Below, piece by piece: positions 38,401 to 47,082 of a stretch of DNA of 64,000 bases. The stretch lies in NCBI RefSeq assembly GCF_023100945.1, contig NZ_CP064689.1, positions 8,662,001 to 8,726,000 on the forward strand, given 5' to 3'. Origin of the DNA: Bradyrhizobium sp. 200 (GTDB lineage Bacteria; Pseudomonadota; Alphaproteobacteria; Rhizobiales; Xanthobacteraceae). Every line of letters starts with the position of its first letter. The stretch's first letter is position 1. The notes under the pieces are model-generated. The model had not been told where the DNA came from. It worked only from the letters and a program-made list of their open reading frames with translations, and did no database searches. Position numbers and translations under genes: made by a program.

Positions 38401-39072
38401 TCAATAACAGCGCGAGGCCGCAATCGCGTGCACGCGGTTGTCACCGAGCACATGCGCCATGAAGCCGGGTGCGCCGAAGATTTTCGCGAATGCGACGTCG
38501 CGGATGCTCAAGCCGCCGGTATAGGCGCCGAACGCGGGCATCACGGCGCGCTCGCCGTCGGAAGCAAAGCACCGCCGCTCCATCGATCGTCCCCGGGTCG
38601 CAACGCGCGCCTTGGGATGGAGGTGGCCGGCGATTTCACCCGCCGCCCCTGTCGGCTCATGGCGGAATACAATCGGGCCGATCGCGACTTCACTCGCCAC
38701 CACGCCGCCGAGATCGGACGGCAGGGCGGGATCGTGATTGCCCGAGATCCAGATCCAGTCGCGCCGCGCCTGCATCGCCGCGAGCGCGTCGCGATCGGGC
38801 GCTGACAGCCGCTCATGCGCGGCGCGGTCATGAAAACTGTCGCCGAGCGCAATCACCATGCGCGGGTCGTGCCGCGCGATGACGGCGGCGAGACGGCCGA
38901 GCGTCGCGACGGTGTCATAAGGTGGCAGCAGTACGCCGCGTGTGGCGAAGCTGGAGCCTTTTTCCAAATGCAAATCGGAAACGACGAGCAGGCATTGCTC
39001 CTGCCAGAACAGTGCGCCGGACAGATCGGCAACGAACGTCACGTCTGATATTGTGACCTTCGAGGCGCGCAT
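38401..39072 (-). CDS. pdeM: Ligase-associated DNA damage response endonuclease PdeM
   Basis: A 223-residue calcineurin-like phosphoesterase. Metal motifs are in order: VVSDLHLEKG, ALGDSFHD, SGNHDPALP, and AGHLHPKA, enough to bind two metal ions. PdeM is one of four proteins (helicase, exonuclease, ligase, endonuclease) encoded together in many bacteria and linked to DNA repair. I use ATG 39072 with GGGAGA upstream; GTG 39111 is also possible. It follows the helicase gene on the minus strand. Confidence 0.9.
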   Translation of the reverse strand: MRASKVTISDVTFVADLSGALFWQEQCLLVVSDLHLEKGSSFATRGVLLPPYDTVATLGRLAAVIARHDPRMVIALGDSFHDRAAHERLSAPDRDALAAMQARRDWIWISGNHDPALPSDLGGVVASEVAIGPIVFRHEPTGAAGEIAGHLHPKARVATRGRSMERRCFASDGERAVMPAFGAYTGGLSIRDVAFAKIFGAPGFMAHVLGDNRVHAIAASRCY

Positions 39073-39123
39073 CTGTTGATCGTCTCCCGAAGATTGCGCC
39101 CCTGCCGTCACGTGCCTTCCCGT

Positions 39124-41706
39124 CTATCCCATCGCCTCTTTAACGAGTTCATCGGCGGCTTCCGCCAGCAACTCGTCCCCCGCTTCGCCATAAACTGACT
39201 CGCGGCCGATTTCCAGCATTACGGGCACTGCGAGCGGCGAAACATGTTCGAGTTCCCGATGGGTGATTCGCCCCTGAATGCGCGAGAGCATATCACCCAG
39301 ACGCTTGAGATCGAGCAGGCCGGCGGCGGCGTCCGCGCGCGCTGCGCGGAGCAGCACATGGTCCGCCTGGTGCTTGCGCAGCACATCATACACAAGGTCG
39401 GTCGAGAACAGCACCTGGCGGCGGCTTTTCTCCTCGCCGGTGAAGCGGCGCGGGATCAAGCCCGAGATCAGCGCGCAATTGCGGAAGGTGCGCTTCATCA
39501 GCGCGGATTCCGCAAGCCACGCCTCGAGATCGTCGCCGAGCATGTCCGGCGCAAACAAGGCAGCGAAATCGAGCTTGCCGTGGCGAACCATGAAGGAAAC
39601 GTCGCCGAGCCCCCAGATCGCCAGCGCATATTCATTGGCGACAAAGCCGAGCGGCCGGGCGCGGGCACGCTCCAGCCGGCGCGTCAGCAGCATGCCGAGC
39701 GTCTGGTGCGCGAGACGGCCCTCGAACGGATAGCACACCATGTAATGCTTGCCGCCGCGCGGGAAAGTTTCGATCAGTAGCTCGCGCACGGCTGGAACGC
39801 TGGAAAAATCCCGCTGCAGCAACAGCCAGTCGCGCACCTGTTCCGGCAGCGCGTTCCACTGCCGCCGGTCGTCCAGCAGTTTCCGCACCCGTTCGGCCAG
39901 ATAGGTCGAGAGCGGAAACTTGCCGCCCATGTAGGAAGGCACCTTGGCATCCCTGTCATTGGCGCGTGAGACATAAACCTGGTCCTCGACCAATGCCTCG
40001 TAACGCACGATCTCGCCGCCGAATACAAAAGTGTCGCCGGCGACCAGCCCCTCGATGAAATATTCCTCGATCTCGCCGAGCATCCTGCCGCCGCGGCCAA
40101 TCATGCCGGTGGCGCCGGCGCCGCCACCGCGTCCACGCACCAGCTTCACCTTGAGCATCGCCTCTTCGACGATGGTGCCGACATTGAGGCGATAGCTCTG
40201 CCGCACTTTTGGATTGGCGACGCGCCAGCGCCCCTGCTTGTCCTGCCTGATGCGGGCGAAGCGCTCGTAGGTTTTTAGCGCGTAGCCGCCGGTGGCGACG
40301 AAATCGACCACGTCGTCGAAATCGGTTCGTGTCAACGCTGAGTAAGGCGCCGAGGTCAGCACCTCCGCATAGAGTTCGTCTGATAGAAACGGCTCGCCGC
40401 AGGCACAGCCGAGCACGTGCTGCGCCAGCACGTCGAGCGCGCCGGTGCGCAAGGGCGGCGTATCCTGTGCATTCTCCGCGATCGCATCGATCGCGACGCG
40501 GCACTCCAGCACCTCGAAACGGTTGGCGGGAATGAGTACGGCGCGCGAAGGCTCGTCGAGCCGGTGGTTGGCGCGGCCGATTCTTTGCATCAGGCGCGAA
40601 GCGCCCTTGGGCGCGCCGACATTGACGACGAGATCGATGTCGCCCCAATCGATGCCGAGGTCGAGCGAGGACGTGCAGACCACGCCGCGCAGTTTGCCGG
40701 CCGCCATCGCGTCTTCGACCTTGCGGCGCTGAGCGACGTCGAGCGAGCCGTGATGCAGGGCAATAGCGAGGCCGTCGTCGTTCATGCGCCAGAAATCCTG
40801 GAACAGCATTTCGGCCTGGCTGCGGGTATTGACGAAGATCAGCGTGGTCTTGTTGCGCTTGATCAGCTCATACATTTCGCCGAGCGCATGGCGCGCGGTG
40901 TGGCCGGCCCAGGGCAGGCGCTCCTTGGTGTCGAGCATCTCGACGACGGGTGCCGCCGCGCCGCCGGCCACGACGATATCGGCGGAGATTTCCCTGCCGC
41001 CCTGCTGCGGCACCAGAAAGCGCGCCAGCGATTCCGGCTCGGCCACGGTCGCCGACAGACCGATCGCGCGCATTTCGGGCGCCAGCCGCCACAGCCGCGC
41101 CAGTCCAAGCGACAGCAAATCGCCGCGCTTGGAGGTGACGAGCGCATGCAGTTCGTCGAGCACGATCCGCCTGAGCGAGGAGAACAGGAACGGCGCGTCG
41201 TCCGACGACAACAGCAGCGCCAGTTGCTCGGGGGTGGTGAGCAGGATGTCCGGCGGATAGCGCCGCTGCCGCTGCCGCCGCGACACCGGCGTGTCGCCGG
41301 TGCGGGTCTCGACCTTGATCGGCAGCCCCATCTCGGCGATCGGCGTTTCCAGATTGCGCGCGATGTCGACGGCGAGCGCTTTCAGCGGCGAGATGTAGAG
41401 GGTGTGGAGACCGCCGGTGCGCTTCACGCTGCGGCCGGTGGAGATGAGGTTCTTCTTCTCGCCTCCCCCCTTCGGAACGGCCGGAGACGAAAGCTCCACC
41501 AGCGTCGGCAGAAAGCCAGCCAGCGTCTTGCCGGCGCCGGTCGGCGCGATCAGCAGCGCGGATGCGTCATCGCTGGCTTTTGCGAGCAGCGCGAGCTGGT
41601 GCTCACGCGGCGACCAGCCGCGCGCGGCGAACCAGCGCCGGAAGCGGTCGGGCAGCAACGCAGCCGTTTCGAGCGGCGTGAAAGGCAATGGATCGGGCGA
41701 CGGCAC
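39124..41706 (-). CDS. Ligase-associated DNA damage response DEXH helicase (Lhr-like)
   Basis: An 860-residue superfamily 2 helicase. The Walker A motif is APTGAGKT near residue 54; the Walker B is DELH (VLDELHALV); motif III is SATV and motif VI includes QRIGRANHRL. The C-terminal half holds the winged-helix and DUF4145/Lhr-type domains, as in the Lhr family, which unwinds DNA-RNA or DNA duplexes. GTG 41706 is the apparent start. It forms one unit with pdeM, 51 bp apart. Confidence 0.92.
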   Translation of the reverse strand: MPSPDPLPFTPLETAALLPDRFRRWFAARGWSPREHQLALLAKASDDASALLIAPTGAGKTLAGFLPTLVELSSPAVPKGGGEKKNLISTGRSVKRTGGLHTLYISPLKALAVDIARNLETPIAEMGLPIKVETRTGDTPVSRRQRQRRYPPDILLTTPEQLALLLSSDDAPFLFSSLRRIVLDELHALVTSKRGDLLSLGLARLWRLAPEMRAIGLSATVAEPESLARFLVPQQGGREISADIVVAGGAAAPVVEMLDTKERLPWAGHTARHALGEMYELIKRNKTTLIFVNTRSQAEMLFQDFWRMNDDGLAIALHHGSLDVAQRRKVEDAMAAGKLRGVVCTSSLDLGIDWGDIDLVVNVGAPKGASRLMQRIGRANHRLDEPSRAVLIPANRFEVLECRVAIDAIAENAQDTPPLRTGALDVLAQHVLGCACGEPFLSDELYAEVLTSAPYSALTRTDFDDVVDFVATGGYALKTYERFARIRQDKQGRWRVANPKVRQSYRLNVGTIVEEAMLKVKLVRGRGGGAGATGMIGRGGRMLGEIEEYFIEGLVAGDTFVFGGEIVRYEALVEDQVYVSRANDRDAKVPSYMGGKFPLSTYLAERVRKLLDDRRQWNALPEQVRDWLLLQRDFSSVPAVRELLIETFPRGGKHYMVCYPFEGRLAHQTLGMLLTRRLERARARPLGFVANEYALAIWGLGDVSFMVRHGKLDFAALFAPDMLGDDLEAWLAESALMKRTFRNCALISGLIPRRFTGEEKSRRQVLFSTDLVYDVLRKHQADHVLLRAARADAAAGLLDLKRLGDMLSRIQGRITHRELEHVSPLAVPVMLEIGRESVYGEAGDELLAEAADELVKEAMG

Positions 41707-43174: not shown

Positions 43175-44101
43175 TCAAGTTTTCGCGGCGACGGCAACCA
43201 GGCCCGGAACCGGCGCCTCGTCCTCATTGCGGGCGGAGCGATCTTCCAGCAGGGACAATTCGAGGCCTGCGGATTCGACCTCGGCGCGCACGTAAGCTGC
43301 CGCATGGGCGTAGCGCAGACCCTTGCCGATGACCACGCCCTCGCCATCGTGGGTTTCGGTGGTGAACGCAAGCAGCCCGCCGGAGGCCAGCACGCGAGCG
43401 GCTTCCTTCAGCACAGGTGCGAGATCGGCAACGTACACCATGGCATCCGCCGCGAGAATGAGATCGGCGCTGGCATCCACCCTCGCCCGCAGACCCTGCA
43501 GCATGTCGGCGACTTCGAGCTCGGCGTAGAGGCCCGTGGCGCGGGCCCGCTCGATCATGCGCGGCGACAGGTCGACGCCGATGAAATGATCGACCGACCT
43601 GGCGAAGGCTGACGCCGCTAGCCCGGTGCCACAGCCGAGATCGATCGCGCGCTTGAAAAACGCCGGCTTGCGCACCGCCGATCGCACCGACAGCACGGCC
43701 TTGAACAACAGCGCCGGACCGCGATAGCCGAGATCGCCCACGAGCGACGATTCAAAGCGTGGCGCATATTGGTCGAACAAGGTTTGCACGTAGGCCTGCG
43801 GCATGCCGGCCAATGGTTCGGCGCCGAGCCGCATCAATCGGAGCCCGGCGCCGTGACGGTCATTGGAATCGCTGATCTGGGCCTGCCGAAACGCCGCGAC
43901 TGCCGCGTCATGTTCGCCGAGTTCTTCGCGGATGCCGGCGAGCGTGAACCAGGCCGACGTGAAATTCGGCGCCAGTTCGATCGCCTGCATCAGCAGATCG
44001 GCGGCGGCAGGCAGATCGCCCTTCAATTGCAGGTCGCGGGCAAATTCGAACCGGCGGTCGGCCATCAGGTCGCCGGAAGACAGAAAAAAACGGGCAGGCA
44101 T
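43175..44101 (-). CDS. TPR-containing class I methyltransferase
   Basis: About 308 residues from ATG 44101. The N-terminal part has two TPR-like repeats (RDLQLKGDLPAAADLLMQAI and LGEHDAAVAAFRQAQ). The methyltransferase domain has motif I in AIDLGCGTGLAASAF and acidic motif II in HFIGVDLSPRMIERA. This is the COG4976-like methyltransferase group. The upstream ATG at 44122 lies within a palindromic repeat, so I reject it. The substrate is unknown. Confidence 0.82.
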   Translation of the reverse strand: MPARFFLSSGDLMADRRFEFARDLQLKGDLPAAADLLMQAIELAPNFTSAWFTLAGIREELGEHDAAVAAFRQAQISDSNDRHGAGLRLMRLGAEPLAGMPQAYVQTLFDQYAPRFESSLVGDLGYRGPALLFKAVLSVRSAVRKPAFFKRAIDLGCGTGLAASAFARSVDHFIGVDLSPRMIERARATGLYAELEVADMLQGLRARVDASADLILAADAMVYVADLAPVLKEAARVLASGGLLAFTTETHDGEGVVIGKGLRYAHAAAYVRAEVESAGLELSLLEDRSARNEDEAPVPGLVAVAAKT

Positions 44102-44116
44102 TTCAGTAACCGGTTT

Positions 44117-44201
44117 CGTCATTGCCGGGCTTGCCCCGGCAATCCATCAAAGCAGGGACTTTTCAAAAGATGGATGCGCGGGTCAAGCCCGCGCATGACG
44201 G
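44117..44201. repeat. CGTCATTGCCGGGCTTGCCC palindrome
   Basis: CGTCATTGCCGGGCTTG at 44117 and CAAGCCCGCGCATGACGG ending at 44201 form an imperfect inverted repeat of 85 bp, and CCATC/GATGG pair at the inner edge. The left arm has its own hairpin (GCCGGGCTTGCCCCGGC), the right arm GCGCGGGTCAAGCCCGCGC. It lies between the divergent methyltransferase and exonuclease genes and must hold or adjoin both promoters. Confidence 0.85.
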
Positions 44202-44236
44202 CTAAACATCGCAAGCGGACCGCCTATATAGAAGGC

Positions 44237-45274
44237 ATGCGTCCGCAGGACATCCTGATCCCCGCTCCCGCCGGCCTCTGCTGCAAGCCGGGCGGCTTCC
44301 ACATCGACCCGGTCCGCCCGGTGGATCGGGCCGTGATTACCCACGGCCATTCCGACCATGCCCGATCCGGCCATGGCGCCGTGCTCGCCACGCAGGAAAC
44401 GCTCGACATGATGCGGCTGCGCTATGGCGACAATTTCGCTGCGACCACACAGGCCGTACGTTATGGCGAAGAAATCCGGCTTGGCGACGTCACTATCAAA
44501 TTCCATCCCGCGGGCCACGTCCTCGGCTCGGCGCAGATCGCCGTGACCTGCAAGGACACCTGCATCGTTGCGTCCGGCGACTACAAGGACGCCGCCGACC
44601 CGACGTGCACGCCGTTCGAGGTGGTGCCCTGCGACGTCTTCATCACCGAGGCGACGTTCGGCCTGCCGGTCTTTCGCCATGGCGATGCGGCCGATGAGGT
44701 GAAGAAGCTGCTGGCATCGGTGGCGCTGTTTCCGGAGCGCGCCCATCTGGTCGGGGCCTATTCGCTCGGCAAGGCGCAGCGCGTGATCGCGCTGCTGCGC
44801 GAGGCCGGCTACGACGCGCCGATCTATCTGCACGGCGCGATGGAGGAGATTACGCGCTATTATGAAGGCCGCGGCATCGCGCTCGGCGAACTACGCCCGG
44901 TCAAGGGCGTGAAGAAGGCCGATCTCGCCGGCACCATCGCGCTGGCGCCGCCGTCGGCGACATCAGACATCTGGACGCGGCGTTTCCCCGATCCGGTCAC
45001 GGCATTTGCCTCGGGCTGGATGAGGGTGCGGGCGCGCGCCCGCCAGCGCGGCGTCGAACTGCCGCTGGTGATCTCGGACCACGCCGACTGGGACGGCCTG
45101 ACCGCGACCATCGCAGCCACCGGCGCCGGCGAGATCTGGGTCACCCACGGGCAGGAAGACGCACTGGTGCATTGGTGCAAGTCGCGCGGGCTTGCCGCGC
45201 GGCCGCTCGATCTCGTCGGTTACGGCGACGAGGAAGAGCATGAGGTCATCGCGGCCGGCGAGGCCGAGGCATGA
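44237..45274 (+). CDS. Ligase-associated DNA exonuclease (MBL fold)
   Basis: A 345-residue metallo-beta-lactamase/beta-CASP enzyme. Motifs: ITHGHSDHARSGHG (HxHxDH), FHPAGHVLGSAQI, VASGDYKD, and the beta-CASP end VISDHADWDG. It belongs to the SNM1-related exonuclease family encoded with ATP-dependent DNA ligases. The ATG at 44237 lies after AGAAGG. Its stop overlaps the ligase start by four bases (ATGA), so the two are made together and likely act on the same DNA ends. Confidence 0.93.
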   Translation: MRPQDILIPAPAGLCCKPGGFHIDPVRPVDRAVITHGHSDHARSGHGAVLATQETLDMMRLRYGDNFAATTQAVRYGEEIRLGDVTIKFHPAGHVLGSAQIAVTCKDTCIVASGDYKDAADPTCTPFEVVPCDVFITEATFGLPVFRHGDAADEVKKLLASVALFPERAHLVGAYSLGKAQRVIALLREAGYDAPIYLHGAMEEITRYYEGRGIALGELRPVKGVKKADLAGTIALAPPSATSDIWTRRFPDPVTAFASGWMRVRARARQRGVELPLVISDHADWDGLTATIAATGAGEIWVTHGQEDALVHWCKSRGLAARPLDLVGYGDEEEHEVIAAGEAEA

Positions 45275-47082
45275 ACCGTTTCGCCGAACTTTTGGATCGC
45301 CTCGCCTATGAGCCCGGCCGCAACAACAAGCTGCGGCTGATTACGGCCTATTTTCGCGACACGTCCGATCCCGACCGCGGCTATGCGCTGGCCGCGCTGA
45401 CCGGCGCGCTGTCGTTCAAGCACGCCAAGCCGGGGCTGATCCGCGATCTGATCGCCGATCGCACCGACCCGGTGCTGTTCGGGCTGTCGTATGATTACGT
45501 CGGCGATCTATCCGAGACGGTTGCACTGATGTGGCCGAAATCCTCTCCCTCTCCCGCTTGCGGGGGAGGGTCGGGGTGGGGGTCTGGCCGCTTGCTTGGC
45601 GGAGAGAAAGAGCCCCCACCCGTATCGCCCGACAGCGCTAGCGCGCCGTCAGACGATCCGACCTCCCCCGCAAGCGGGAGAGGTAAGAAAGCGCCGGGGC
45701 ACGTATCAAGCCGCCACAACAACCCGCCTCCCCCCACCCTCTCTGAAGTTGTCACCACCCTTCGCACCCTCGGCAAGACTGAGCTGCCAAGACAGCTCGC
45801 GCGCTGGCTCGACGAACTCGACGAGACCGGCCGCTGGGCGCTGCTGAAGCTCGTAACCGGCGCGATGCGGATCGGGATTTCAGCGCGGCTGGCGAAGACC
45901 GCGGCGGCCGCGCTCGGCGACAAGGACCCGCACGAGATCGAACTGATCTGGCCGGGGCTTTCGCCGCCCTACCTTGACTTGTTCGCATGGCTGGAGGGCC
46001 GTGGCGAAAAGCCTGTCAATCGCGATCCCGCACCGTTCCGTCCTGTCATGCTGGCGCACGCGATCGAGGACACCGATTTCGCCAGTCTCGATCCTGCGGA
46101 CTTCATTGCGGAATGGAAATGGGACGGCATTCGCGTGCAGGCGGTCTCAGGCCGCGACGAGCGCGGCCACATGCAGGCGCGGCTCTATTCGCGCACCGGC
46201 GAGGACATCACCAAAAGCTTTCCCGACCTCGTGCTGTCGCTGCATCTGCCCGGCGCCATCGATGGCGAGCTGCTGGTGCTGCGCGAGGGCCGCGTGCAGA
46301 CCTTCAACGTGCTGCAGCAGCGGCTGAACAGAAAAGTCGTCTCGCCGAAGCTGATCAAGGATTTTCCGATTCATCTGCGCGCCTACGATCTGCTCGGCGA
46401 CGATGAGAACGATCTGCGCGAACTGCCGTTCGTCGAGCGCCGCGCGCATCTCGAGGCATTCGTGCGGAAGCTCGACGACCCGCGCATCGACCTGTCGCCG
46501 ACGATTGCCTTCGATAGCTGGGAAGCGCTGATGGCGGCACGTGCCGATCCCTCCAGCGCCGGCGCCGGCGAGGATGCCGATGCGGTCGAGGGCGTGATGC
46601 TGAAGCGCCGCGACGCACCGTATCTGCCGGGCCGCCCGAGAGGCCAGTGGTGGAAATGGAAGCGCGACCCGCACATCATCGATGCCGTGCTGATGTATGC
46701 GCAGCGCGGCCACGGCAAGCGTTCGTCCTATTATTCGGACTACACGTTTGGCGTCTGGACCTCGGGCGATGACGGCGAGCAACTGGTGCCGGTCGGAAAA
46801 GCTTATTTCGGCTTCACCGACGAGGAATTGCTGCAGATCGACCGTTTCGTCCGTCGCAACACGACGGAAAAATTCGGGCCCGTGCGGCACGTCGTGCACG
46901 AGCCGGACCAGGGCCTGGTGCTGGAAGTTGCCTTCGAGGGGCTGGCGCGCTCGCCGCGGCACAAATCCGGCGTCGCGATGCGGTTTCCGCGCATCAGCCG
47001 GCTGCGCTGGGACAAGCCGCCGCGCGAGGCCGACCGGCTGGAGACGCTGGAGCGGATGCTCAAAGACGTGACCGCAAATTAA
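45271..47082 (+). CDS. ATP-dependent DNA ligase carrying an in-frame repeat insertion
   Basis: A 603-residue ligase; members are usually about 530-550 residues. The N-terminal DNA-binding domain comes first. The adenylation domain has Lys283 in EWKWDGIR (motif I), then DGELLVL (motif III), EGVMLKRRDAPY (motif IV) and WWKWKRDP (motif V). Residues about 90-140 (starting SSPSPACGGGSGWGSG) are Gly/Pro/Ser-rich and foreign to the family; they come from a 136-bp palindromic repeat at 45548-45683. The frame stays open, so the protein is probably made. It shares a four-base overlap with the exonuclease gene. Confidence 0.92.
   Translation: MNRFAELLDRLAYEPGRNNKLRLITAYFRDTSDPDRGYALAALTGALSFKHAKPGLIRDLIADRTDPVLFGLSYDYVGDLSETVALMWPKSSPSPACGGGSGWGSGRLLGGEKEPPPVSPDSASAPSDDPTSPASGRGKKAPGHVSSRHNNPPPPTLSEVVTTLRTLGKTELPRQLARWLDELDETGRWALLKLVTGAMRIGISARLAKTAAAALGDKDPHEIELIWPGLSPPYLDLFAWLEGRGEKPVNRDPAPFRPVMLAHAIEDTDFASLDPADFIAEWKWDGIRVQAVSGRDERGHMQARLYSRTGEDITKSFPDLVLSLHLPGAIDGELLVLREGRVQTFNVLQQRLNRKVVSPKLIKDFPIHLRAYDLLGDDENDLRELPFVERRAHLEAFVRKLDDPRIDLSPTIAFDSWEALMAARADPSSAGAGEDADAVEGVMLKRRDAPYLPGRPRGQWWKWKRDPHIIDAVLMYAQRGHGKRSSYYSDYTFGVWTSGDDGEQLVPVGKAYFGFTDEELLQIDRFVRRNTTEKFGPVRHVVHEPDQGLVLEVAFEGLARSPRHKSGVAMRFPRISRLRWDKPPREADRLETLERMLKDVTAN
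45548..45683. repeat. Palindromic repeat inserted in the ligase coding sequence
   Basis: The left end reads CCTCTCCCGCTTGCGGGGGA and goes on GGGTCGG to 45574; the right end, 45658-45683, is its complement with one base fewer. Inner pieces GGGTGGGGG and CCCCCACCC also pair. Within each arm CCCGCTTGCGGG is itself a hairpin. The whole has no stop in the ligase frame. The style matches Bradyrhizobium intergenic repeats, but this one is inside a gene. Confidence 0.88.

Follow-up and report, generated by a model that had tools for sequence, protein, structure and literature searches.

How does a palindromic repeat come to lie in frame within the gene of a DNA repair enzyme, and is such an element a one-off accident or one of a series? 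This question is raised by a 64,000-nucleotide stretch of the genome of Bradyrhizobium sp. 200 (the window), in which the ligase gene of a ligase-associated gene cassette contains a 136-bp palindrome that we refer to as element A. In-frame palindromes have mostly been told as curiosities of single genomes. The loop in which element A resides provides a natural series over 190 orthologues, with empty states, several occupants, doubles and remnants, and this series makes the frequency of gene entry, the retention of frame and neutrality testable. The features concerned are as follows (coordinates of the window).

38401 to 39111, minus strand: ligase-associated endonuclease PdeM (TIGR04123), by profile match.
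39124 to 41706, minus strand: ligase-associated DEXH helicase (TIGR04121), by profile match, with its variable loop read directly.
43769 to 45274, plus strand: ligase-associated exonuclease ORF (TIGR04122), by ORF and profile match; the family match runs from residue 163 on.
45271 to 47082, plus strand: cisplatin damage response ATP-dependent DNA ligase (TIGR04120), 603 residues, by ORF and profile match.
45538 to 45714, plus strand: variable loop of the ligase, codons 90-148, between the conserved P89 and the HNNPPPP stretch, by orthologue alignment.
45548 to 45683, plus strand: palindromic element A, 136 bp, by inverted-repeat search, genome blastn and RNA fold.
45548 to 45569, plus strand: left arm of the inverted repeat, 22 nt, forming a hairpin of its own, by inverted-repeat search.
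45573 to 45582, plus strand: G-rich tail, paired in the fold prediction with 45613-45621, by sequence and RNA fold.
45613 to 45621, plus strand: C-rich partner of the G-rich tail, by sequence and RNA fold.
45662 to 45683, plus strand: right arm of the inverted repeat, 22 nt, fully complementary to the left one, by inverted-repeat search.
46117 to 46119, plus strand: codon of the invariant K283 within EWKWDG, by alignment.

The ligase scored 812 bits against TIGR04120 (cut-off 400, residues 3-597) and 810 bits against PRK09247, and proteins 95-96% identical to it include one from Bradyrhizobium algeriense. As had been predicted from the sequence, its ORF reads through element A without a stop. 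The loop that contains the insert spans 59 residues (90-148) vs. the 5-10 residues found in empty orthologues, so that the earlier estimate of about 50 added residues stands. The length of 603 residues was correctly called; the full-length empty orthologues of the genus have 550-563 residues (530-550 expected). Between P89 and P155 there are no conserved columns among 42 aligned sequences, whereas K283, which we take to be the adenylation lysine, is invariant in the same 42 and is C-terminal to the insert, as proposed. From the kept frame, we infer that the ligase tolerates the insert. Codons 1 to ~162 (43769-44254) of the adjacent exonuclease ORF are outside the TIGR04122 match, and its true start is probably near 44255. 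No palindrome was seen in the variable loop of the window's DEXH helicase when this loop was read directly.

Structure prediction likewise bore out that the site belongs to a loop, within the DNA-binding domain at the N-terminus, although the model of the window ligase is weak (mean pLDDT 53.8, with the helices of the DNA-binding domain mostly at 55-89). In this model residues 92-151 are unstructured (pLDDT ~30) and flanked by helices 80-87 and 157-166; in the model of an empty orthologue (L184, mean pLDDT 47.4) the corresponding helices, 80-87 and 104-113, are joined by a short linker. The top Foldseek matches of the ligase model were archaeal and human ATP-dependent ligases, at low TM-scores.

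The original prediction had described a 136-bp palindrome with nearly perfect arms of about 26 bases; the element has that length, and its arms are 22 nt, 100% complementary and 92 nt apart. Each arm is a near-palindrome on its own by direct inspection. When up to three mismatches were allowed, the arm occurred at just these two sites in the window (mean of 100 shuffles, 0), and the predicted RNA fold of the 136 nt has an energy of -100.4 kcal/mol (z -9.4), which none of 200 shuffles equaled. A search of the 9.49-Mb single-contig genome for the repeat found the further copies that had been anticipated, with at least 73 blastn pieces, a lower bound as 40 of 53 first-look candidates were scored; grouped by hand, the pieces represent at least 32 loci. 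A search of a plasmid collection produced a single partial match, in an unannotated Azospirillum record. A known Rfam family was rejected as an identity for element A, since an Rfam search returned two matches, both under the gathering score and taken as chance.

A ligase match was found in all 195 genomes of the genus, though that in G035 was weak, and the loop could be read in 190 (left out were L116, L132, L188 and L194, which are without the N-terminal part, and G035, whose ligase was unusable). Eighty-eight loops are empty (15-30 nt, a linker of 5-10 residues) and 102 are inserted (57-333 nt), the latter having 40 distinct lengths, of which 99/102 are a multiple of three. The out-of-frame inserted loci are L137, L151 and L243. 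After eight loci were relabeled by hand (L044, L068, L137, L042, L093, L191, L104 and L162), the inserts were classed as A (8), A remnants (2), B (79), B remnants (3), C (5), B+C (2), C+B (1) and other (2). The genus therefore does not share the same 50 residues, in keeping with the original prediction: element A is present in eight of 190 orthologues, that of the window included, plus the two remnants. That relatives have other palindromes or none in the same loop indicates a recurrent landing place rather than a one-off accident. The original prediction missed that the loop is a recurrent site of several families and that other repair genes carry copies.

By eye, A and B share a common arm core and are apparently inside-out relative to each other, with the hairpin outside in A and the G/C tail outside in B. 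Matches elsewhere in further genomes were found for A in 7/7 cases, for B in 8/8 and for C in 2/8. Some B inserts, L036 among them, have a further, smaller hairpin (the GGCGAACGAAGCTCGC region) nested within the right arm. A search at the level of the family matched 48 of 61 genomes (46 of 59 from other genera, two of the 61 being from the genus itself). Of 33 other-genus loci that were read, 21 are empty and 12 inserted; eight of the 12 inserts were inspected and had best inverted repeats scoring 9 to 27 (raw scores with no shuffle control), and their sequences depart in detail from those of A, B and C.

Our preferred reading, to which we assign a probability of roughly 0.78, is that the inserts are near-neutral, tolerated spacers. 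Element A would belong to a REP/MITE-like palindrome family, present in many copies and composed of two hairpin-plus-tail units placed face to face. It would have entered the short linker that joins two helices of the ligase DNA-binding domain, and its translation would give a disordered spacer, rich in Gly, Pro and Ser, to which the enzyme is tolerant. Different palindromes would have entered this linker repeatedly, been inherited and drifted under almost no amino acid constraint, and subsequently been lost or exchanged between relatives; loops of other repair proteins would undergo the same. The alternative that survives best, which we nonetheless consider unlikely, is that the inserts are functional, either because the flexible segment alters repair or because the mRNA hairpin tunes expression, such that selection keeps or swaps alleles. 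The strong RNA fold of element A is compatible with this alternative, but 88 of the 190 orthologues manage without an insert and the loop is filled by many unrelated sequences.

The evolution of the inserts bears on both readings. For B inserts (n = 77, 2926 pairs) dN/dS was 0.72-0.90 vs. 0.04-0.12 in the flanks, which suggests that their amino acids drift almost freely, in a near-neutral manner, and argues against function. B inserts and flanks had similar synonymous divergence, with median dS (insert/flank) of 0.191/0.182, 0.295/0.275, 0.343/0.362 and 0.517/0.520 at successive levels and 0.529/0.657 at the deepest; an exception is the close pair L077/L097 (insert dS 0.307, flank dS 0.141). 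The gene frame of B contains a stop in 1 of 82 inserts; the two remaining forward frames contain one in 35 and 78. For C inserts (10 pairs) dN/dS was 0.51-0.67. Judged by the same estimates, A does not fit plain neutrality, as its dN/dS (28 pairs) was 1.07-1.49 and its insert dS was well below flank dS; the ratio above 1 is a point in favor of functional inserts. In A inserts the second forward frame is likewise stop-free (0/10 with a stop), so an open gene frame alone proves little for A.

The tree used to assess changes of loop state was built from the flanks, with 194 rows and 567 columns. At least 26 changes between empty and inserted were required on branches with both supports high, vs. 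a mean of 33.0 and a minimum of 24 with shuffled labels, and the Mantel signal kept by inserts and empty loops was 0.50 and 0.44, respectively. Loop state is thus nearly independent of flank kinship, with some signal kept, a pattern that the functional alternative would also accommodate. Well-supported pairs that differ in state include L082/L146, L085/L180, L092/L246 and L096/L161. Across the compared kilobases such pairs mostly share ~90-97% identity. When sister pairs were profiled at 500-bp and 60-bp resolution, identity had no clear drop beside the site, for which reason local recombination tracts at the loop were rejected. A second in-frame palindromic insert, of 24 residues replacing 2, was observed in the ligases L253, L254 and L255 (genomes G108, G004 and G119), in the catalytic part immediately before DGELL, with ends AAGCATGATG/CATCATGCTT by eye. 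Its carriers differ in the loop, that of G004 being B and those of G108 and G119 empty; if the second insert arose once, the loop state switched later.

Copies of the elements are not confined to intergenic positions. Among 20 ORFs spanning own-genome copies, six had a Pfam domain: DnaE2, an IMS (ImuB-like) protein, MutS, UvrD/PcrA, ArfB and UrtC (the element being at its very start). At other loci and in other genomes the figure was 5/10 (DEXH helicase, UvrB twice, ImuB and DUF1007), and with a B-type element from DnaE2 as query, for which 30 loci were read out of 209 pieces, it was 2/10 (ImuB and DEXH helicase). With the query genes set aside, 13 copies in all lie in ORFs that have a Pfam domain, and 10 of these are in repair or mutagenesis genes. 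The background share of repair genes is probably a few percent at most. Domain evidence flanks the element on both sides in five of the 13 (DnaE2, MutS, UvrD and two helicases), all of them repair genes; in the remaining eight (five repair) the domain is on one side only, and some of these elements may therefore sit in a mis-annotated extension. Alignment to solved structures placed 85 residues between aligned positions 278 and 364 of the UvrD-like protein, compared with 4 in E. coli UvrD, and 16 additional residues ahead of the P-loop of MutS. Similar elements interrupt DnaE2, MutS, the ligase-associated helicase and UvrD/PcrA; ORFs resembling ImuB and UvrB are touched by them.

The DnaE2 segment between two anchors (L387-L416) was 63-210 nt and in frame in 30/30 loci, a biased choice comprising the 30 best-scoring of 60 genomes. 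Its best inverted repeat scored at least 11 in 25/30 (raw scores with no shuffle control), and by eye the segments were of A (5), B-like (7), TSPQRGEV (2) and PESI/RND (16) kinds; no empty state was seen in the 30. Two different inserts were observed in the loop inside the DEAD domain of the DEXH helicase (L312 and L438, from G032 and G010).

The lean toward repair genes, which the functional alternative would explain as selection on repair or on mutation rate, invites a broader conjecture, one that we offer with considerable doubt: loops of repair and mutagenesis enzymes may be a preferred, self-renewing niche for palindromes, in which many families would settle, stay in frame and replace one another as interchangeable spacer cassettes, since altered repair or mutation helps the element or the host.

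A separate site-specific transposition in every carrier would also yield carriers scattered over the flank tree and several families at the same site, and a TAC duplication at B points in this direction. L191 has the 27-residue linker of B but lacks the element, and its single TAC corresponds to one TAC on each side in L060. This pattern fits either target duplication of 3 bp or loss of the DNA between the two TACs; the border of element A at the ligase loop is ambiguous as to target-site duplication. Separate transpositions are nevertheless improbable. Ligase A copies are nearer each other (90% between that of the window and that of G177) than other complete own-genome copies are (68-74%), from which ligase A alleles appear to share descent; moreover, B insert dS tracks flank dS and the outer linker of B is outside the genomic B match stretch among the matches listed. 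Least probable of all is an ordinary hypervariable, low-complexity linker that only seems repetitive through its GC-richness, since, Gly/Pro/Ser-rich and fast-changing as the loop is, it has perfect 22-nt arms where none are expected, same-sequence multicopy elements elsewhere in the genome, and clean empty and inserted states.

The proposal that this locus is a second setting for protein-coding palindromes, after Rickettsia, has to be given up, because Wolbachia and REP-bearing genomes are also known settings in the available text of the sources (PMC2229807, PMC3733652, PMC4224334, PMC2759123). In-frame palindromes or MITE-like repeats are described there for Rickettsia, Neisseria and enterobacteria (PMC2229807, PMC2759123). 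Element A resembles the Rickettsia palindromic elements (RPEs) in length (105-146 bp there, 136 bp here), inverted ends, multiple copies and location, in frame within conserved genes and also intergenic (PMC2229807), and falls within the 100-150 bp of that type; its arms are within the 15-30 bp of MITE terminal repeats. However, this likeness is drawn from features, the genus is another, and Bradyrhizobium has several families in one loop across many species. The RU/ERIC elements of enterobacteria and Correia MITEs of Neisseria are likewise short, have inverted repeats and contribute open frames that are fused to genes, but differ in sequence and host, and repair genes are not singled out in the parts of the sources available (PMC2229807, PMC2759123). 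Wolbachia addA, addB and priA contain in-frame, stop-free palindromes in recombination and repair genes; their host, in contrast, is an endosymbiont, their positions are fixed within one group, and family swapping is not described in the portion of the article seen (PMC4224334).

A further parallel is with GTAG/CGTC REPs, for which the accessible sections of Di Nocera (2013, PMC3733652) report intragenic copies in many species, in frame and with repair genes prominent, including DnaE2 genes and the O. terrae DNA ligase, and, for two species of Xanthomonas, different REPs at nearly one and the same position of recB; REPs of Bradyrhizobium were already described there. That lean toward repair genes recurs here in non-pathogenic soil bacteria, with elements from the ligase and DnaE2 loops. 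A GTAG/CGTC REP is defined by an unpaired GTAG or CGTC tag beside the hairpin, a stem of 8-9 bp (CGTC) and a CCA tail, whereas element A appears to have no unpaired tag of this kind: it starts with CCTC, a permitted variant, but as read from the sequence this would pair within the arm. A many-species allele series at one loop was also not met in those sections. Br-REP1 and Br-REP2 are REP elements of Bradyrhizobium too, but are intergenic and their printed consensus is unlike element A by eye, in the part of PMC5082802 available. The DnaE2 segments of L396, L402 and L405 have a GGAATC core and look related to Br-REP1/2, again by eye. A literature search covering titles and abstract openings, with few subscription journals, found no paper on this ligase loop.

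Y1 tyrosine transposases (RAYT/TIRYT) were considered as movers, with a PF01797 match found in 60 of 98 genomes of the genus. They were rejected in this role because the element arms were absent at all 31 PF01797 loci inspected (L181, L183 and L263-L291). Other inverted repeats, e.g., of the ATTACGGTGACAGTGCACT or CGTAGGGTGGGCAAAG types, flank the Y1 genes at many of the loci L183, L270-L277, L286, L289 and L291.
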